From Microcoleus sp. bin48.metabat.b7b8b9.023 (GTDB taxonomy: Bacteria > Cyanobacteriota > Cyanobacteriia > Cyanobacteriales > Microcoleaceae): DNA of 64,000 bases. The stretch lies in contig NZ_JAAFKG010000006.1 of assembly GCF_013299185.1 (NCBI RefSeq), forward strand, positions 1 to 64,000. The letters are read 5' to 3'. The position numbers and the translations under genes are program-made. Below are positions 34,945 through 51,625 of this stretch, in pieces. The notes beneath the pieces were generated by a model, which was not told where the DNA came from, ran no database searches, and saw only the letters and a program-made list of their open reading frames with translations. The stretch's first letter is position 1, and the number at the start of each line of letters is the position of its first letter.

Positions 34945-35515
34945 GAGCTTTGTTTCCTTTGCGATGAATAAACGGATAAAGCCATTTTTTTTACTTTAGT
35001 CGATCGCGCGACGCATTTAAAGTCTGTAACGAAATTATTGTGTTCGGCGACGTGTTTTGGTTGTTGGTTTGTAAAGAAAAGTAAACTTGTTTTGAGGGCG
35101 ATCGCTGGAGGGTAAAAATAAATAAACGAACATTATCCGTTAAATGCAAGCTGTGCGATCGGGTTGATAAAAAAGTTTACAAATCGGAGAGTGGGGGCTG
35201 CTGGGGGTTGAGAACCCGGAGATCCACCCAACCAAGAGGGCTCTCACGGGGGCACTGCCCCTACAAGGGGGAATGGAAGCATTCTCAAAGTCCCCCTTTT
35301 TAAGGGGGATTTAGGGGGATCTAGACTTCGATACAAACGAGAGATACACAGGGTTTCAGTCTTCAGTTGAAAACCCGGAGATCCCCCCTAGCCCCCCCTG
35401 ATAGTCGGGGGGGACAAGAGTATTCAAAGTCTCCTTTGTTAATCGGATTAATTAACGTTGTATTTAATTATCTGGCCGCGCTAAACTATTGCAAAGTATG
35501 GGAAATATTTAAATT
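34945..35515. repeat. Intergenic region with GGGGGAT/CCCCC repeats
   Basis: The psaE promoter must lie in about 34945-35060, but no clear -10/-35 pair was identified. 35213-35340 and 35370-35445 hold two copies of a repeat with AACCCGGAGATCC and CCCTTTTTAAGGGGGA hairpins. A related inverted copy lies at 58478-58570. No gene is seen. Confidence 0.7.
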
Positions 35516-37561
35516 ATGTCGTTAGTTGATTTAGCTAATACTAAAGTTCGGGTAATTGGATGCAGTGCGGTGATGGCTGTTGGGCAAGTTATTTCAAGCG
35601 CGATCGCCAATCCGGGAACACAAGCAGCAGCGGGGATGATGGGTGGCCCGATCGCACTTGGTGGCATTTCGATCTTAGCAGCGATTGCCGGTGGTGTTGC
35701 GGGAAATATGGCGGCGAGTGACCTCGGAAATAAGATGACGGAACGATTGGGGAAAAATCCCAATATTCTCGACAATCACGATTTGACTAAGGCGGCGGGT
35801 GAGGCGATCGGCTATATTTTGAGGGAGGTTGCGAAGTCGGATCAATTAATTGCGATCGCCGAAACCAAAAATTTGCCTTACGCAAAACAGGCTGTAGATC
35901 AATTAGCTGAGAAAACTCCCCAATATTGGCTGGATATTAACACGGATACAGCCGATTTGTCAAGGGGTTTACAGATTTCCGAAGAGCAGTTAACCCAGAT
36001 TTTTTCGGCGGATGTCGAGGAGTTCGATCGCGTTACCGGATTGACACCGCAAGATTGGGCAAGTTTCCTGCGGGAATTCGCGGCCAGCGAGGGCAAATCC
36101 TTCGATGGGGAAATCGTGGAATTTGTGGCGAACAAACTGTATGCAACATTCCCGAAAGCGTACCGCGAAGTGCTGAAACTGGATGCGGCGAAGGGAGGAG
36201 AAAAATTTGCGGCGATGCTGTTGAATCTCCACCAAATTGCTTTGACTGAATTGAGAGATTTGGGGCTGCAAAATGGGGAGATTCTGCACAAATTGGAGGC
36301 CGTGGCGACGCAGCAGCAGATTTGTCAAGTGATGGTGAAGTTGGAATCAATAGAAATTGGCATCCGATCCGATTTGGCGCAGATTCAGAATTTGCTGGAA
36401 CGATTTGTTGATACTGGTACGCCCCGATTGCCGCTGCCCTACGAGTGCGAAACGATTATTCAAGACCGGACTCAAGACTTTACCGGCCGCCGATTTGTGT
36501 TTGCAGCAATTGCCGAATTTTTGCAGAACAATCGCAAAGGCTATTTTGTTTTAGAAGCAGATCCGGGAGTCGGGAAAAGTTCAATTATGGCGAAGTTAGT
36601 GCTGCTGCTAAAGCGGCGCTGTGTCGCCCATTTTAACTCGCAATCTCAAGGTATTGTCCGCGCCGAACAATTTCTGGAAAATGCCTGCACTCAGTTAATT
36701 CGACGCTATCAACTAAATTATCCGCAACTGCCGGAAAATGCGACGAGAGATGGCAACTTTCTGAGTCGATTGTTGGGGGAAGTCAGCGCTAAATTGGGCG
36801 GCAAAAAGTTGATTATTGTCGTCGATGCCCTGGATGAAGTTGATCTGGGTTTGCAGGGGCGCGGTAGCAATGTTTTGTATTTGCCCGATGCTTTGCCCGA
36901 TAACGTTTATTTTATTGTTTCCAAGCAGCCGAAAACTCTGCCTTTGCCAAATCATGACGTTTTTGATTTGATGCAGTACAGTGCAGAAAGTTTGGCGGAT
37001 GTCAAGGTTTATATTGACAAACGCACGGGGAACAGCGCGTCTATTCAGAGTTGGATTAACCGTCAAAATTTGCAGCGCGAACAGTTTGTGGCAGCGGTGG
37101 CGGAAAAAAGCCAGAATAATTTTATGTACCTGCGCTACGTGCTGAATGATATCGATAGCGGCAAGTACAGCGATGTGAATTTGCAAGATTTGCCGAGGGA
37201 ATTGGAAGGATATTATGACAAGCATTGGGCGCGGATGGAAATGGCGGTTAGGGATAAAGAATTGCGCCGCCGGAAGTTGAAGGTGATTTATTTGTTGACG
37301 AAAACTCGCAAGCCAGTTTGCTGCGATATTTTGGCGGATTTTGCCGAGGAAGATGCCTTGGATGTGCAGGAAGTTCTGGATGATTGGGAACAGTTTCTGC
37401 GCCGTAGCGGTGATAGTCCTCCCGATTACAGTATCTATCACGCGAGTTTCCAAAGATTTTTGCATCGTATCGATGTGGTGCAGAAAGCTGGGGTGTCGCT
37501 GCGGGATATTGAAACGGCGATTTCTGATAATTTGTGGGAGGATTTGTACGGGGATGAGTAA
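35516..37561 (+). CDS. NACHT/AAA-type STAND ATPase, first half of a split receptor
   Basis: A 681-residue P-loop protein. Residues 1-75 are Gly/Ala-rich and hydrophobic (two stretches around 12-35 and 42-65), which could insert in a membrane or form a helical effector domain. Residues about 80-320 are an alpha-helical region that I cannot assign. The NTPase has Walker A ADPGVGKSS with Lys354 and Walker B LIIVVDALDEVD with Asp437. A winged-helix-like segment (about 590-660) ends with DNLWEDLYGDE. It lacks its own sensor repeats. The next gene overlaps by ATGAGTAA and supplies a helical linker plus WD40 repeats. Together they look like one NACHT-WD40 receptor made as two chains. Confidence 0.8.
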   Translation: MSLVDLANTKVRVIGCSAVMAVGQVISSAIANPGTQAAAGMMGGPIALGGISILAAIAGGVAGNMAASDLGNKMTERLGKNPNILDNHDLTKAAGEAIGYILREVAKSDQLIAIAETKNLPYAKQAVDQLAEKTPQYWLDINTDTADLSRGLQISEEQLTQIFSADVEEFDRVTGLTPQDWASFLREFAASEGKSFDGEIVEFVANKLYATFPKAYREVLKLDAAKGGEKFAAMLLNLHQIALTELRDLGLQNGEILHKLEAVATQQQICQVMVKLESIEIGIRSDLAQIQNLLERFVDTGTPRLPLPYECETIIQDRTQDFTGRRFVFAAIAEFLQNNRKGYFVLEADPGVGKSSIMAKLVLLLKRRCVAHFNSQSQGIVRAEQFLENACTQLIRRYQLNYPQLPENATRDGNFLSRLLGEVSAKLGGKKLIIVVDALDEVDLGLQGRGSNVLYLPDALPDNVYFIVSKQPKTLPLPNHDVFDLMQYSAESLADVKVYIDKRTGNSASIQSWINRQNLQREQFVAAVAEKSQNNFMYLRYVLNDIDSGKYSDVNLQDLPRELEGYYDKHWARMEMAVRDKELRRRKLKVIYLLTKTRKPVCCDILADFAEEDALDVQEVLDDWEQFLRRSGDSPPDYSIYHASFQRFLHRIDVVQKAGVSLRDIETAISDNLWEDLYGDE

Positions 37562-39644
37562 GTTTAAAGAACGGTTGGGGAAACTGTCGCCGAAAAAGCG
37601 GCTTTATGCTTTGGAAACTCTGCCGGGGCATTTGGCGGAGAGTGTTCAAGGGGAACGGTTGCATCAGTTGTTGACGGATTTTGATTTTATTGAGGCGAAG
37701 TTGGATGCGGTGGGGGTTCAAGCGTTAATTGAGGATTACGATTTGGCGAGGGTTTCTGATGTTTTGTTGTCGGAGGGGCAAGGGGAAAGTTTGCGGTTGA
37801 TTCAAGGGGCAATTCGGAAGTCGGCGCACGTTTTGGAATGGGATAAAACGCAGTTGGCGGGGCAATTGTTGGGGAGGTTGCTGGATTTTGAATTGCCTGA
37901 AATTCAGAGGATGTTGGAACAGGCTAAGCAGTGGAAAGATCGTCCTTGGCTGCGGCCTTTGAAGACTAATTTGGAGCGACCGGGTGAAGGATGTAGGCGA
38001 ACTCTCACAGGTCATACTCGCCCGTTAAATGCAGTCGCGATTGCACCCGACGGCAAAACAGCGATTTCCGCTTCAGGGGATAAAACCCTGAAAATCTGGG
38101 ACACAGACAGTGGCAGGGAACTGAAAACTCTCATTGGTCATACTCACAGGGTAACAGCAGTGGCGATCGCACCGGATGGCAAAACAGCGATTTCGGCTTC
38201 ATATGATAAAACCCTCAAAATTTGGGACACAGACACCGGAAGCAAAATTTTAACTCTCACCGGTCATCATGGCTATGTATTAGCAGTTGCGATCGCACCA
38301 GACGGCCTCACAGCAATTTCGGCTTCATTTGATAAAACCCTGAAAATCTGGGACACAGACACTGGCATCGAACTTTTAACCATCGGTCATACTGACTATC
38401 TATCAGCAGTCGCGATTGCACCAGACGGTAAAACCGCGATTTCCGCCTCACGGGATAACACCCTGAAAATCTGGGACACCCAGACAGGTCGGAAATTGAA
38501 AACTCTTACTGGTCATATTAGTGAGGTAACGGCAGTGGCGATCGCACCAGACTGTAAAACCGCGATTTCCGCCTCACGGGATAACACCCTGAAAATCTGG
38601 GACACCCAGACAGGTCGGAAATTGAAAACTCTTACTGGTCATATTAGCGAGGTAACGGCAGTGGCGATCGCACCAGACTGTAAAACTGCGATTTCCGCTT
38701 CACGGGATAACACCCTGAAAATCTGGGATACCGAGACAGGCATCGAAGTTAGAACCCTCACAGGTCATACTAGCGTGGTAAGTGCAGTGGCGATCGAACC
38801 AGAGGGCAAAACCGCGATTTCGGCTTCATTTGATAAAACCCTGAAAATCTGGGACACAGATAGCGGTAGAGAACTGAGAACTCTTACCGATCATACTACC
38901 GTGGTAAGTGCAGTGGCGATCGCACCAGACGGCGAAACCGCGATTTCCGCTTCATTTGATAAAACCCTGAAAATCTGGGACACAGAAAGCGGCACCGAAC
39001 TTAGAACCCTCACGGGTCATACTAACTATGTAAATGCAGTGGCGATCGCACCAGACGGCAAAACCGCGATTTCCGCTTCAGACGATCGCACCCTAAAAAT
39101 CTGGGACACCGAGACAGGTACAAAAGTTAGAACCTTCACGAGTTGTCGTAGCCAGGTACTAGCAGTGACGATCGCACCAGACGGCAAAACCGCGATTTCC
39201 GCTTCAGGGGATCAAACGCTGAAAATCTGGGACACAGAAAGCGGCACCGAACTTAGAACCCTCACGGGTCATACTAACTATGTAAATGCAGTGGCGATCG
39301 CACCAGACGGAAAAAGAGCGATTTCCGCTTCAGGGGATCAAACGCTGAAAATCTGGGATACAGAAAGCGACACTGAACTGAGAATCTCCACAGGTCATAC
39401 TAGCATGGTAAGTGCAGTGGCGATCGCACCAGACGGCAAAATAGCAGTTTCCGGTTCAGATGATCGCACCCTAAAAGTCTGGGATTTGCTTAGTGGAAAA
39501 GAGGTTGCTAGTTTCAGTGGAGAGTATAGATTTAATTGTTGTGCGATCGCCCCTGATGGAGTGACAGTTGTAGCGGGCGATCGATCGGGCCGAGTGCATT
39601 TCCTGCGATTGGAGGGAGGTAGACAGTTGACAGTTGACAGTTGA
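37554..39644 (+). CDS. WD40-repeat sensor, second half of the split STAND receptor
   Basis: A 696-residue protein translated from the ATG at 37554, which overlaps the stop of the ATPase gene by 8 bp. An upstream open frame to 37341 lies entirely within the ATPase gene. Residues 1-145 are an alpha-helical linker. Twelve 42-residue repeats follow, with the pattern 'TLTGHt..V.AVAIAPDGKTAISAS.DkTLKIWDT.sG.el', and a degenerate thirteenth. They form one or two beta-propellers. Repeats are strikingly alike in DNA, and repeats 5 and 6 are almost identical. The last residues, RQLTVDS-stop, are encoded by a CAGTTGA heptamer array, so the native C-terminus has been replaced. Confidence 0.88.
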   Translation: MSKFKERLGKLSPKKRLYALETLPGHLAESVQGERLHQLLTDFDFIEAKLDAVGVQALIEDYDLARVSDVLLSEGQGESLRLIQGAIRKSAHVLEWDKTQLAGQLLGRLLDFELPEIQRMLEQAKQWKDRPWLRPLKTNLERPGEGCRRTLTGHTRPLNAVAIAPDGKTAISASGDKTLKIWDTDSGRELKTLIGHTHRVTAVAIAPDGKTAISASYDKTLKIWDTDTGSKILTLTGHHGYVLAVAIAPDGLTAISASFDKTLKIWDTDTGIELLTIGHTDYLSAVAIAPDGKTAISASRDNTLKIWDTQTGRKLKTLTGHISEVTAVAIAPDCKTAISASRDNTLKIWDTQTGRKLKTLTGHISEVTAVAIAPDCKTAISASRDNTLKIWDTETGIEVRTLTGHTSVVSAVAIEPEGKTAISASFDKTLKIWDTDSGRELRTLTDHTTVVSAVAIAPDGETAISASFDKTLKIWDTESGTELRTLTGHTNYVNAVAIAPDGKTAISASDDRTLKIWDTETGTKVRTFTSCRSQVLAVTIAPDGKTAISASGDQTLKIWDTESGTELRTLTGHTNYVNAVAIAPDGKRAISASGDQTLKIWDTESDTELRISTGHTSMVSAVAIAPDGKIAVSGSDDRTLKVWDLLSGKEVASFSGEYRFNCCAIAPDGVTVVAGDRSGRVHFLRLEGGRQLTVDS

Positions 39645-39654
39645 CAGTTGACAG
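39623..39654 (+). repeat. CAGTTGA array forming the 3' end of the WD40 gene
   Basis: Four and a half CAGTTGA units overlap the last codons. Because seven is not a multiple of three, this strand has a TGA stop in every frame within 21 nt, so insertion of the array always ends an open frame. Confidence 0.9.
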
Positions 39655-40414
39655 CGAGGTTTTTGTCCACATCTGTGGGTTGTAGGGAAGTATTTCGGAA
39701 AAAACCCGGCGGTTGGAAACCGCGTCTACACAAACGATGTCCGCCTCCGCGGACGAAGAGGGTATTCACCAGATGCAAAATCATCGGGTGAAATCTTCAA
39801 CCCGCGGAGGCGGGTTTTGTCTGTGTAGCCGCGGTTTCAACCGCCGGGGTTTATGGTTTTTGGGTGGATGGGCGATCGGGTTTTTGGGTGGATGGGCGAT
39901 CGGGTTTTTAGGTGGATGTGCGATCGCATTTTTGGGTGGATGGGCGATCGAATTTGAGAGAAATGTGCGATCGCATTTGAAATCGGAGGCGGTTGAAATC
40001 CCGGCGGTTGGAAACCGCGTCTACACAAACGATGTCCGCCTCCGCGGACGAAGAGGGTATTCCCAGATGCAAAATCATCGGGTGAAATCTTCAACCCGCG
40101 GAGGCGGGTTTTGTCTGTGTAGCCGCGGTTTCAACCGCCGGGGTTTTTGGGTTTCAACGGCCGGGTTTTTTGTGGATGGGCGATCGCATTTTTGTGGATG
40201 GGCGATCGAATTTGAGAGAAATGTGCGATCGGGTTTTTGGTGGATGGGCGATCGGGTTTTTGGTGGATGGGCGATCGGGTTTTTGGGTGGATGGGCGATC
40301 GGGTTTTTGGTTGATGGGGGCGATCGGGTTTTTGGTTGATGGGGGCGATCGGGTTTTTTTGTGGATGGGCGATCGGGCTATAATACAGAAAACTTGACAA
40401 TAAAAGCAACTGTC
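39655..40414. repeat. Large repeat field with GATCGGGTTTTTGG array
   Basis: No gene. Two nearly identical ~140-bp foldback blocks (39708-39842, 39992-40141) have arms CGGCGGTTGGAAACCGCG and CGCGGTTTCAACCGCCG. Around and after them are more than ten units of about 23 bp, GTGGATGGGCGATCGGGTTTTTG, at 39850-39960 and 40170-40375, each carrying a HIP1-like GCGATCG core. Open frames here come from the repeats. The promoter of the toxin-antitoxin pair should be near 40375-40400 (GGGCTATAATACAG, with TATAAT). Confidence 0.85.
40377..40390 (+). promoter_or_regulatory. Candidate -10 element upstream of mazEF-type pair
   Basis: GGCTATAATACAG contains a perfect TATAAT about 30 nt before the antitoxin ATG at 40415. 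The upstream repeat (GTGGATGGGCGATCGGG) provides no clear -35. Confidence 0.45.
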
Positions 40415-40645
40415 ATGAGAGAGTTAATCCAACAAGAATTAGAAAAGTTCGATCGAGAACAACTCCAACAAGTATTTGAATTTATTGCCTTCCTGAAATT
40501 CCGTGCCAGATTAGTGACTATTCCTGCGATCGATGAAACTAACTTAGCTGCACTTTACAGCGAATTTGCCGAAGAAGACCGACAACTTGCAGAACTCGGA
40601 ATCAGCGAATATGTAGAACTCCTCAAACATGAGGATTTGGCATGA
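40415..40645 (+). CDS. Antitoxin of MazF-type pair
   Basis: A 76-residue acidic protein starting MRELIQQELEKFDREQLQQV. It is rich in Glu/Gln/Leu and helical, of the kind found before MazF toxins in cyanobacteria. I do not see a clear AbrB/SpoVT fold, so it may bind the toxin without a standard DNA-binding domain. An upstream ATG at 40361 in the same frame lies within the repeat array and is less likely. The stop overlaps the toxin start (ATGA at 40642-40645), which gives translational coupling. Confidence 0.75.
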   Translation: MRELIQQELEKFDREQLQQVFEFIAFLKFRARLVTIPAIDETNLAALYSEFAEEDRQLAELGISEYVELLKHEDLA

Positions 40646-40989
40646 CAATCAGACGAGGTGAAATCTGGATTGCCAACCTCGATCCGACACAAGGTTCCGA
40701 ACAAGCAGGCGTGCGTCCCACAATTATTTTTCAAAACGATACTCTTTCGAGATACACCACTACTGTCATCAGTATTCCTCTCACCACAAATCTGCGCCGC
40801 GCCTCTCTTCCTTCCTGTGTTCTAATTCCCGGCGGTGAGGGAGGATTGACTCAAGATTCTGTTGCATTGTGCCATCAACTGCGAGTTTTGGATAAAACAA
40901 GATTGCGAAATAAAATTGGTGAAGTCAATCCAGAGATACTGGTACAATTAGAAAATATCATATTATTTACCTTGGGTTACTTGCCTTAA
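40642..40989 (+). CDS. MazF/PemK-family mRNA interferase toxin
   Basis: A 115-residue PemK-like ribonuclease. RRGEIWIANLDPTQGSEQAGVRPTII contains the conserved GEIW..DLdPt.G.E.gg.RP block with the catalytic Arg. VISIPLTTN and DSVALCHQLRVLDKTRL complete the fold. It would cleave mRNA unless held by the preceding antitoxin. Length and motifs are complete, so it is probably active. Confidence 0.92.
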   Translation: MTIRRGEIWIANLDPTQGSEQAGVRPTIIFQNDTLSRYTTTVISIPLTTNLRRASLPSCVLIPGGEGGLTQDSVALCHQLRVLDKTRLRNKIGEVNPEILVQLENIILFTLGYLP

Positions 40990-41102
40990 AAAAGAGCGAT
41001 CGAATCTTCAATCCGCTTTCCTCATGGGAATAAAAAGTATGGAATTTGGGAGAAATGTGCGATCGACTGTAAAATAACAATAAAAACACAGGAGTAATCG
41101 CC

Positions 41103-41657
41103 GTGAGCGTCACAACTGTAAAATGGACGGTTGCAGACTACCACCGCATCATTGCAGCCGGCATTCTGGAAGGACGAAAAGTTGAACTAATCGGTGGAGA
41201 AATAATCGAAATGGCTCCCGAAGGAGAATCTCATGCTTACTGTAGCGATGAGGCTGGAGAGTACCTAATGTACTTGCTAGGCGATCGGGCTAAAGTGCGA
41301 CAAGGTAAGCCCATTACCTTGCCACTTAACAACTCCGAACCCGAACCAGATATCGCTGTAATTCAACGTTTGGGACAAAATTATCGAGAACATCATCCCT
41401 ATCCAGAAAATATCTTTTGGCTGATAGAATACTCAAATTCTACTCTGACTAAAGACTTGGGAATCAAGAACAAAATTTACGCCGCCGCCGGGATTGCCGA
41501 GTATTGGGTTGTCAATTTGCGAACTATGGAATTAATCGTGTTTCGAGATCCTACCGATGCTGGCTATCAATTCAGAGAAACTCTGACTCACGGTAATATT
41601 AATCCCCTCGCTTTTCCAAATGTTTCAGTTGCGATCGATCGTTTATTCGGGAATTAG
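41103..41657 (+). CDS. Uma2-family (DUF820) endonuclease-like protein
   Basis: A 184-residue protein of the Uma2/DUF820 family, which is greatly expanded in filamentous cyanobacteria and has a PD-(D/E)xK nuclease fold. The motif is present: SEPEPDIAVI, then WLIEYSNSTLTKDLGIKNKIYAAAGIAEYWVVNL. The role is unknown; mobile-element and defence contexts have been suggested. It starts with GTG at 41103 after ACAGGAGTAATCGCC, a good Shine-Dalgarno (GGAG). It follows the MazF pair by 113 bp. Confidence 0.9.
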   Translation: MSVTTVKWTVADYHRIIAAGILEGRKVELIGGEIIEMAPEGESHAYCSDEAGEYLMYLLGDRAKVRQGKPITLPLNNSEPEPDIAVIQRLGQNYREHHPYPENIFWLIEYSNSTLTKDLGIKNKIYAAAGIAEYWVVNLRTMELIVFRDPTDAGYQFRETLTHGNINPLAFPNVSVAIDRLFGN

Positions 41658-41739
41658 GTAAATGAGGTAGAAACACTCGGCGATTTCAACCGCTGGGTTT
41701 TTTGTATTCTAAAATCAGAAATCCCAAATCTCAAATCGA

Positions 41740-42513
41740 ATGCCTCACACAACAGTAATACTCGCCATGAGTGCCGATGGCAAAATTACAGATACCGCCC
41801 TCACCGCCGCCAGATTCGGTTCGGCTAACGACAAATCCCACCTCGAACAACAAGTCGCCGCCAGTGACGCAGTTCTCTTCGGAAACGGCACTTTGCGCGC
41901 CTATGGAACCACTCTGAGAGTAATTTCCCCCGATTTGCTAGAACAAAGGAAACTGCAAGGAAAGCCCCCACAACCCGTGCAAATTGTGTGTTCCCGATCG
42001 CACCAATTTGACCCAAACTTACGATTTTTCCAGCAACCGGTTCCCCGCTGGTTGTTAACTGGAAAAGACAGGGGGCTTTTTTGTGGGTGGGGGCGGGTTT
42101 ATTTAGCCTGTCTGCACGCTTTAAAGCTGTTGGTGAACCCGCCCCTACAAGTTTTTGACAGTGGTGCAACATCTCTGTTCGATCGCACTTTAACCGCCAA
42201 CACTATCGATGGCGAAATCGATTGGAACGATGCTTTTCAACAGCTAGAAACCCTCGGAATCAAACGTTTGGCAATTTTGGGAGGTGGAAAACTCGTCGCG
42301 TCTGTGCTGGCTGCGGGCTTGATAGACGAGCTCTGGCTGACGGTTTGTCCGTTAATTTTGGGCGGCGCGGATGCACCGACACCTGTGGAGGGAAAGGGTT
42401 TTTTAGCGCATTTAGCGCCGAAATTGGAGCTTTTGGCGGTAAAACAGGTGGAATGTGAGGTGTTTTTGCATTATCGGTGCGATCGAGCACAGAGTCAAAA
42501 TACCCATAAATAG
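41740..42513 (+). CDS. RibD C-terminal-like reductase with in-frame repeat insertion
   Basis: A 257-residue member of the RibD C-terminal/dihydrofolate reductase-like fold (pyrimidine reductase of riboflavin synthesis or a relative). Typical parts are ILAMSADGKI at the start, AILGGGKLVASVLAAGLIDELWLTVCPLILGG near the end. Residues about 115-140 (FCGWGRVYLACLHALKLLVNPPLQ) do not belong to the family. They are encoded by an inserted repeat of about 70 bp (42084-42157), found almost unchanged in the triplicated block at 58601-58891. There is no deaminase domain, so it is not a complete RibD. Confidence 0.85.
   Translation: MPHTTVILAMSADGKITDTALTAARFGSANDKSHLEQQVAASDAVLFGNGTLRAYGTTLRVISPDLLEQRKLQGKPPQPVQIVCSRSHQFDPNLRFFQQPVPRWLLTGKDRGLFCGWGRVYLACLHALKLLVNPPLQVFDSGATSLFDRTLTANTIDGEIDWNDAFQQLETLGIKRLAILGGGKLVASVLAAGLIDELWLTVCPLILGGADAPTPVEGKGFLAHLAPKLELLAVKQVECEVFLHYRCDRAQSQNTHK
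42084..42157 (+). repeat. GGGGGCGGGTTTATTT element inserted in the RibD-like gene
   Basis: Starts GTGGGTGGGGGCGGGTTTAT and ends TGGTGAACCCGCCCCTACAAG, with complementary GGGGCGGGTT/AACCCGCCCC ends. The same unit occurs three times at 58601-58891, and a shorter form at 49567-49626. The reading frame stays open because TAG/TAA within the unit are out of phase. Confidence 0.85.
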
Positions 42514-50011: not shown

Positions 50012-51388
50012 TCATTGTCGAGTTTTGATATACTGCTTCAGTACAGGTGACAGAGTGTAAAGACTTGCCTGTTTTTCGATCCAACAGCGCCGCGATAAAG
50101 ATTGGAGCGCGTTTAGCAAATCTGATGATGATATTTGTCCATGTTGTAGCAATTTGGCGAAGTTGACTGGCTGGTTTTCTGTCGCCAACAAGGACAGGAC
50201 TTGTTTTTCTAGTTCGGAAGTGCGATCGAACTGCTGCTGTAAAACATCTTTCAAATCTTCGGGTAACAATATGGTATCATCTAGTAATAATTCTGTCGCG
50301 CCGATTCCCAATTCTTGAATCAAAGTCGCCACGCTTTTTAACCATAGCGGGTTGCCTTCATAGCGGTGAATGAGTGCTTCACTGTTGTCAATTTCTTCTA
50401 ACCCACAATCTCTCAGGATTTCCCGTCCGGCTGCGATGTCTAAACCTACCAGTTGTAAGGTACGAATGGGAGTATTTTGGTTTTTAAATTGAGTCACTTC
50501 TCTCGGTTGTTCCCAACCAATTAGCATAAAGCAACTTTTATGAGATAATTTTTCTATCTGTTTGAATAAAGAGCGATATTCTTCGTAGTCTGGTTTATAC
50601 TTTCCTGCCAATTCGCCGCTACAGAAAAGGTTGTGAACGTCATCCAAGACTATTAAACAGCGATGCTTTTGTAAATACTTAATCACCGGTAAGCGTTTCT
50701 GGTTGGTTGGGGAATCTAGTTTTTCTGACTGGGAAAAAAACTGTATTAGTTTATGTTCAAATTCATCTAGGGTGTGCGATGCGTCTATGCTGCACCAAAT
50801 AACGTACTCAAACTCCTCTTTAATTTGTTGTACGAGTTGTACTGCTAGGGTTGTTTTGCCGATTCCACTGATGCCGGTGAGGGCTATGAGGCGGCTGTTT
50901 TGTTGTAGAATCCAGGTTGTGAGGGTTTGGAGTTGGGGGGTGCGATCGAAGAAATCACCCAACTCCGGCATTTCGCTTAAATCTTGATGTGAGGTTTGAG
51001 GTTGTTTTGGGTTAGATGTTTCCTGATTTGGTGGGTGTGAGTTTTGTGTATCTGGTGAATGTAACGTTTCTCCACAGATGTTAAAACTACCAATTTTGTT
51101 GTGATGCTGTTCCAAATGTGAAACTATCGAGACTTGCAACCTCTCTATTGCCGATCTAAAATTTGTTTTACTAACATCTTCTCCCAACTCTTCTGAAAGT
51201 ATCTGCCATAACTTTGAGCCAACATCCCTAACATAACTCTCATTACAGTGAATCTCCTCGGCAATTTTGGTATATTTCTCACCTTGCATGGTTCCTCGCA
51301 GAATTGCCTCTTGTAAGTTATCGAGGTGCTGACCCGTTTTGGCAAATACCATCTCGTCAGCTATTTGTAACACTTCATTGAGATTCAT
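50012..51388 (-). CDS. NB-ARC STAND ATPase with vMAP-type N-terminal domain
   Basis: A 458-residue protein. Residues 1-90 resemble the N-terminal helix-turn-helix of vWA-MoxR-associated proteins in cyanobacteria (MNLNEVLQIADEMVFAKTG..L..LQEAILRG). A Gln/Ser/Pro-rich linker follows (about 108-140). The NB-ARC domain has Walker A TGISGIGKTT (171-180), Walker B CLIVLDDVHNL and a winged helix at about 390-455. It stops there: no WD40, TPR or other sensor repeats follow. Such proteins are candidate signal-transducing or immune NTPases; sensor and effector would have to be separate. A potential partner gene is not obvious nearby. Confidence 0.82.
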   Translation of the reverse strand: MNLNEVLQIADEMVFAKTGQHLDNLQEAILRGTMQGEKYTKIAEEIHCNESYVRDVGSKLWQILSEELGEDVSKTNFRSAIERLQVSIVSHLEQHHNKIGSFNICGETLHSPDTQNSHPPNQETSNPKQPQTSHQDLSEMPELGDFFDRTPQLQTLTTWILQQNSRLIALTGISGIGKTTLAVQLVQQIKEEFEYVIWCSIDASHTLDEFEHKLIQFFSQSEKLDSPTNQKRLPVIKYLQKHRCLIVLDDVHNLFCSGELAGKYKPDYEEYRSLFKQIEKLSHKSCFMLIGWEQPREVTQFKNQNTPIRTLQLVGLDIAAGREILRDCGLEEIDNSEALIHRYEGNPLWLKSVATLIQELGIGATELLLDDTILLPEDLKDVLQQQFDRTSELEKQVLSLLATENQPVNFAKLLQHGQISSSDLLNALQSLSRRCWIEKQASLYTLSPVLKQYIKTRQ

Positions 51389-51625
51389 GGAGTATCGTGA
51401 ATGTTGTGATTTTCCGTATTATACCTAACATTTTCCAACATTTTCTGGCATTTTCCAACATTTTTATCGTAGCGAGTTTGAATTGCCAACAAAATTGCCA
51501 ACAAAACTGAGCTTTTTTGGCTAGACAAAGCTGGGGTTTATAGAAAATGATTGGATAAGCTGTTAAGCTGTCGTGCATTTAAATTGTAAATTAAGGCGGA
51601 TAGCGGAGAACAAGGAGCGCACAAT

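Follow-up and report, generated by a model that had tools for sequence, protein, structure and literature searches.

Two overlapping genes in a cyanobacterial genome probably encode an immune-type receptor made as two chains, an ATPase and a WD40 sensor, divided at the joint between the winged helix and HD2 of an Apaf-1-like protein. The genes lie on the plus strand of a 64,000-nucleotide stretch (the window) of Microcoleus sp. bin48.metabat.b7b8b9.023 (contig NZ_JAAFKG010000006.1, positions 1 to 64,000). The predicted receptor is a signal transduction ATPase with numerous domains (STAND) that resembles NOD-like receptors (NLRs) and Apaf-1, which are usually pictured as one chain in which the sensor releases the ATPase. 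Judged from sequence, we regard the pair as a conserved split variant of this known receptor class, with a putative ligand, trigger and killing step. A preliminary description had proposed that the two components form a STAND system that recognizes non-self. Conservation of the split, a hypervariable sensor face and island-like presence and absence support this proposal well; the interpretation in that description is, as a whole, partly supported.

Architecture of the gene pair

The first open reading frame (ORF1; 35516–37561, 681 residues, ATG start) encodes an N-terminal helical domain, an NPHP3_N/NACHT-like STAND ATPase and a putative winged-helix region, and the second (ORF2; 37554–39644, 696 residues, ATG start) encodes an APAF1_C arm followed by a WD40 sensor. 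The ORF1 stop and ORF2 start overlap by 8 bp, as previously described: positions 37554–37561 read ATGAGTAA. A putative ribosome-binding sequence, GGGAGG (37536–37541), lies inside ORF1, 12 nt 5' of the ORF2 ATG, and the ORF listing gives TTG at 37341 as an alternative start for the ORF2 frame. The WD40 repeats reported for ORF2 are present (37983–39575), with 12 canonical blades of a 42-residue repeat and one weaker blade (13 by hidden Markov model), but the supposed helical linker before them is a Pfam match to APAF1_C, the HD2 arm of Apaf-1 (residues 14–99, 37593–37850; 35.6 bits against a cut-off of 22.8). APAF1_C stands at the start of ORF2, directly after ORF1, and the break therefore falls between the predicted winged helix and HD2. 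The pair is confirmed as real, and its split sits where we predict the winged helix and HD2 of an Apaf-1-like receptor to meet.

ORF1 had been called a P-loop NACHT ATPase with Lys354 and Asp437 as its Walker residues. The Walker residues stand, but the NACHT label is correct only if taken broadly, as STAND: NPHP3_N (PF24883) matched residues 335–443 (36518–36847) above its Pfam cut-off (29.3 against 24.8 bits), NACHT (PF05729) scored below its own (12.1 against 26.7 bits), and NB-ARC was absent among the Pfam matches of ORF1 at E up to 1. Walker A (K354) and Walker B (D437) motifs are present, and the K354, D437 and E441 columns are invariant in an alignment of 31 sequences. Also invariant in that alignment is a YH..F motif (Y641, H642, F645) in the C-terminal region of ORF1 (residues 541–681, 37136–37558), at a place that would fit a winged helix after the ATPase, and we infer such a fold there. 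The ratio of nonsynonymous to synonymous substitution rates (dN/dS) for ORF1 was 0.15–0.23 in six comparisons. Searches against known defense systems gave no Avs model above cut-off: Avs1b reached 22.4 bits over part of the PADLOC model only, the Avs NCBIfam model scored 19.2 bits against a cut-off of 1500, and PADLOC returned only partial matches on the pair.

The N-terminal domain of ORF1 (residues 1–300, 35516–36415) contains a hydrophobic Gly/Ala-rich segment (about residues 13–64) with a helical region after it. It had been left unassigned, and its 310 N-terminal residues indeed matched zero Pfam families at E up to 0.1 (two matches up to E 10, both below cut-off), but the same domain is found again on further STAND receptors, namely NB-ARC-TPR (L116, L117), nSTAND1-WD40 and NB-ARC-APAF1_C-WD40 proteins. 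An AlphaFold2 model of the same 310 residues is all-helical, with a mean predicted local distance difference test (pLDDT) score of 61.4 and residues 28–65 below 50; a membrane role for the domain is a guess. The N-terminus of the split ATPase differs among relatives, with NNH5 in four loci (L112, L307, L308, L313).

The split is conserved across relatives

ORF1 relatives were found in at least 83 of 118 related genomes and relatives of the ORF2 arm in at least 75 of the 118. In a sample of the phylum, 38 of 386 genomes had a match to the arm profile and 23 of 291 to Pfam APAF1_C. Both ATPase and arm were present at 40 of 48 loci on named contigs, always on separate frames (40/40); the remaining eight comprise two contig ends and six loci with no detected arm. 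Among the matches listed, 96 of 150 arm rows, from 50 genomes, have a same-strand ATPase no more than 12 kb upstream (no more than 150 bp in 73 cases), and no arm/ATPase pair has equal open-frame length, a crude sign of fusion and the only fusion criterion in this count. The count covered the 150 arm rows and the higher-scoring ATPase rows, of which 105 extend to the C-terminus of the ATPase (query end 620 or beyond); ATPase rows with lower scores, rows confined to the N-terminus and several from broken genes were omitted.

Fused Apaf-1-like proteins exist, and the split could in principle stem from a frameshift in one gene, introduced by sequencing or by recent mutation. This is improbable in the extreme, given that the overlaps are of recurrent types with a ribosome-binding-like sequence; a sequencing frameshift, which the preliminary description had raised against itself, we rule out as the cause, since all 40 two-part loci on named contigs are split. 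The same description had held that ATPase and WD40 repeats usually form one chain. That generalization fails for this ATPase family, as the five APAF1_C single chains that we found (L209, L210, L213, L304, L306) all use NB-ARC.

We examined 76 distinct ATPase/sensor junctions in relatives and found a 4-bp ATGA-type overlap in 34 and an 8-bp overlap in 22, with the others falling between -53 and +383 bp. The relative frame of ORF2 takes all three values (39, 32 and 5 junctions), and at the 4-bp overlaps an AAGGAG/GGGAG-like sequence lies closer to the ATG. The overlap had been thought to permit a frameshift, and programmed frameshifting could yield an ATPase-WD40 fusion as the active product. 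We reject this candidate as very unlikely because overlap type and relative frame both vary: the main overlap types need different shifts, and some genes are separated by gaps of up to 383 bp. As we read the junction sequences, the recurrent feature is coupling rather than one fixed shift.

Paired sensors carry a hypervariable face

The blade framework is nearly fixed in 115 blades of 11 sensors, with entropy maxima at positions 13, 14, 16, 32 and 34 (2.7–3.5 bits; position 3 also up to 2.65). The ratio of nonsynonymous to synonymous polymorphism (pN/pS), a counting estimate over recombining repeats, was 1.39 at these five positions and 0.44 elsewhere (568 blade pairs, 11 sensors), the five having been picked from the paired sensors themselves. 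A four-position set (14, 16, 32, 34) was instead based on the spacing in the fungal receptors HET-D and HET-E, in which codons 7, 9, 25 and 27 are positively selected and 8 and 26 conserved, according to excerpts of PMC1805685. With conserved positions 15 and 33, the sensor positions have this same spacing, so the sensors show the four diversified blade positions of the HET-D/E type, matched to HET numbering by spacing and not by direct alignment.

At the four positions, paired sensors of the 8-bp-overlap class were 0.152 identical and their framework 0.746 (36 pairs from 9 of 11 sensors, leaving out the N-containing G022 and the short G001), with a composition-expected chance identity of 0.11–0.20 per position. 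The 4-bp class gave 0.223 and 0.776 (28 pairs from 8 sensors, a set without those that were short or truncated, contained N or came from a broken pair, such as L057, L059, L060, L061 and L065). An unpaired APAF1_C-WD40 paralogue, in contrast, was 0.964 identical at these positions and 0.860 in its framework (15 pairs from six sensors out of a larger number, four ending at locus ends). Over whole regions, paired sensors were 84–92% identical in the arm and 68–76% in the WD40 region, and the unpaired sensor 85.5% and 85%. The 4-bp-class sensors of G018 and G020, each on a single contig, agree at 18 of 51 variable sites and 436 of 494 framework sites. Such variation between related strains is as expected of a self/non-self receptor, if the sequences are read this way. 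The unpaired protein (L111:5192–7429, contig G000:C31) and its relatives in the genus have no matching ATPase in the 15-kb stretch fetched; such conserved-face orphan sensors may be fixed subunits acting in trans.

Blades within one protein are up to 0.98 identical and their positional correspondence is lost. Several relatives have a broken ORF1 or shortened sensors, and the propeller might be drifting by repeat recombination under relaxed constraint, its variation functionless. We consider this improbable: the framework stays 75–78% identical while the four positions drop to 15–22%, the elevated pN/pS is confined to the variable positions, and the ATPase motifs are invariant.

A diversity-generating retroelement is disfavored as the source of variation. 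Its AAY-directed mutagenesis is expected to leave NNY codons, whereas A or G is the last base in 256 of the 396 codons found at the four positions.

A class-specific block spans the junction

A block covering the end of ORF1 and the start of ORF2 (37238–37669) is specific to the overlap class. With blastn between the 8-bp and 4-bp classes we found no match across this block, though both flanks match; between-class DNA identity is 40–56% from about ORF1 residue 579 to the ORF2 start and higher on either side. Within the 8-bp class (G005, G001) the block is 88–99% identical. We compared distances over 21 pairs from one genus, a set that excludes L042, L044, L045, L050, L053 and L061. Distances in ORF1 541–681 and ORF2 1–35 correlated at 0.98, those in ORF1 1–270 and ORF2 1–35 at 0.20, and those in ORF1 541–681 with ORF2 71–105 and 106–138 at 0.12 and -0.04; removal of one odd row barely altered these values. 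These identities and distances suggest exchange between loci. Eight genomes carry both classes (G000, G004, G005, G008, G014, G019, G022, G025); in two of these genomes one of the pairs is broken. We read the junction block as a putative co-adapted docking surface, the alternative being tight linkage with recombination on either side.

Genomic context and operon variants

The pair lies in an accessory segment (35185–41742). Four genomes (G002, G013, G018, G020) match the window to 35184 and resume at 41743 with 56–59 bp in place of the segment, and have ATPase relatives elsewhere. At the same site G019 carries a 4-bp-class pair and, after it, a MazEF-like region that shares 93% identity with that of the window, and G004 and G010 share the left flank and then have a 4-bp-class pair. 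The left flank is also kept in G001, G012, G017 and G026, with the right flank unmatched within the stretch fetched, and in G007 and G015, with a longer gap to the right flank.

Inside the accessory segment, on the plus strand, is a MazEF-like toxin-antitoxin pair (40361–40989); the MazF matches fall below model cut-offs, and the family search named no family for the antitoxin. A repetitive stretch of GGTGGATGGGCGATCGGG-type units (39830–40350) lies between ORF2 and this pair. Elsewhere in the window, the minus strand holds a second STAND-like ATPase ORF of 468 residues with a NACHT match at cut-off (50015–51418).

Copies of the system occur on plasmids: on Pseudanabaena ABRG53a in a gene run that includes a caspase-family gene, on Chroococcidiopsis pB as a triplet by annotation with an adjoining integrase, and on Nostoc linckia plasmid3 as an ATPase with a partial arm. 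The Pseudanabaena plasmid run (L325:2058–9392) carries SAV_2336-like, caspase-family, ATPase and WD40 sensor genes, with a CHAT gene nearby. A single scan of viral contigs for a viral origin gave no relative (115 pattern matches, 0 confirmed).

The sensor could serve conspecific allorecognition, detecting proteins of other filaments or strains instead of phage, as fungal HET-D/E do. The hypervariable spacing is the same as in HET-D/E, the closest named relatives of the hosts are filamentous cyanobacteria, and strains differ at almost all variable positions. There is, however, no known ligand or fusion-type contact, and mobile plasmids and the MazEF pair fit conflict with mobile elements equally well. 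We therefore regard allorecognition as possible but rather doubtful.

Loci opened for showing several matches, which yield no frequency, include 22 with an ATPase-sensor(s)-ATPase order on one strand (L112, L114, L115, L120, L127, L128, L207, L218, L220, L305, L307–L314, L317, L319, L320, L323) and five with two or three arm-WD40 genes alongside an ATPase (L112, L113, L115, L307, L308). The second ATPase of the triplets has a Walker A pattern in 21 of 22 loci, L112 being the exception, and a strict Walker B pattern in 0 of 22. We read a C-terminal extension on some sensors as TPR-like. A truncated ATPase similar to the second ATPase of triplets (L080; G000:C82:135263–136102) shares a contig with the window. 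At L221:6902–12084, an arm-bearing ORF with no WD40 match precedes a 1131-residue ORF carrying DUF3110; this may be a sensor that uses a different repeat type.

Proposed mechanism

In the two-chain receptor that we favor, ORF2 would be made from the ORF1 message by translational coupling. The HD2 segment at its N-terminus would dock on the ORF1 winged helix and restore an Apaf-1-like protomer, whose variable propeller face would bind a protein from a phage, a mobile element or a foreign strain; the ATPase would then exchange nucleotide and oligomerize. The least certain step is the last, in which the N-terminal domain would kill or disable the cell, perhaps at the membrane. A separate sensor gene could be exchanged, or increased in number, with the ATPase left unchanged.

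More tentatively, and with somewhat less than even confidence, the system may be a combinatorial split NLR, with a common ATPase/effector chassis, exchangeable and sometimes arrayed WD40 sensors, a second ATPase gene that is core-only in the 22 triplet loci, and a pair-specific winged-helix/HD2 docking code across the junction. That code would prevent cross-wiring of co-resident classes, while effector domain and propeller would recombine freely.

Several observations weigh against the two-chain immune receptor. Among the matches listed, 54 of the 150 arm rows lack a nearby ATPase row. In L118 the N-terminal domain, nSTAND1 and WD40 form a single chain, and at L130 one frame fuses WD40 blades to the ATPase downstream. 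Co-inheritance across the junction may partly reflect linkage, and pN/pS, as noted, was counted over repeats that recombine. Most assemblies are drafts, and misassembly of near-identical blades can occur in these. A sequence-profile search of solved structures matched neither ORF1 nor the HD2 arm, and the AlphaFold2 model of the N-terminal domain is of low confidence. Finally, DNA-binding-type N-termini, which could mean gene regulation, occur on some relatives: GerE on the split ATPase of L220 and a weak, sub-cut-off HTH_26 on that of L079.

These N-termini, together with orphan sensors that have a conserved face, would suit a MalT-like STAND signaling or transcription regulator. We think this unlikely for the window pair, whose N-terminus has no helix-turn-helix match in Pfam searches; a hypervariable face and presence/absence variation are also unlike a fixed-pathway regulator.

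If the two-chain receptor is correct, the conserved winged-helix/HD2 division would reveal the contact that carries the signal, and either half could be changed alone. The contrast, within one genus, between paired sensors with a hypervariable face and an unpaired paralogue with a conserved one allows a direct ligand test. HET-like diversification, known from fungi, would extend to bacteria in a separate, exchangeable subunit.

Comparison with known systems

We found no description of a division between ATPase and APAF1_C-WD40 in the literature searched, which was mostly outside subscription journals and included Dunin-Horkawicz et al. 2014 only as cited by others. The published comparisons below draw on parts of the papers named. 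Apaf-1 itself and single-chain NB-ARC-WHD-APAF1_C-WD40 proteins, some of them cyanobacterial (PMC8891106), have the same order of ATPase, winged helix, APAF1_C arm and WD40, and four of the five NB-ARC-APAF1_C-WD40 single chains found here share their N-terminal domain with ORF1. The Apaf-1 type, however, is one polypeptide with NB-ARC, whereas the window pair has an NPHP3_N-like ATPase and is cut between winged helix and HD2; it has the APAF1_C arm followed by WD40, and lacks NB-ARC and the single polypeptide. In the portion of PMC8891106 used here, the authors sought a separate NB-ARC partner in the alga Ulva and found none.

HET-D and HET-E, fungal NACHT-WD40 proteins, likewise have near-identical WD40 repeats with four diversified positions at the same spacing (PMC1805685), but differ in being single chains with another N-terminal domain. 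The best solved-structure match of ORF2 was PDB 2ymu, which is WRAP (Npun_R6612) of Nostoc punctiforme, a cyanobacterial 14-blade repetitive WD40 protein tied to STAND ATPases, whose gene, like the window pair, is coupled to a second STAND gene (PMC6805158, PMC9218822). WRAP is described as the C-terminal part of a protein with its own STAND ATPase, coupled to a TIR-STAND gene, whereas the window sensor chain lacks an ATPase.

Bacterial NTP-dependent conflict systems and antiviral STANDs likewise combine a STAND ATPase with swappable N-terminal modules in multicellular bacteria (PMC7159879, PMC8195603, PMC10907252). In these conflict systems, Avs proteins and bacterial NACHTs, the repeats are described as lying in the same polypeptide, unlike in the window, and Avs1b matches ORF1 in part. 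The BASS/BELL clusters of filamentous bacteria also place an NLR in a two-gene cluster (PMC7889193); there the division is between receptor and effector, whereas in the window pair it is between ATPase and sensor.

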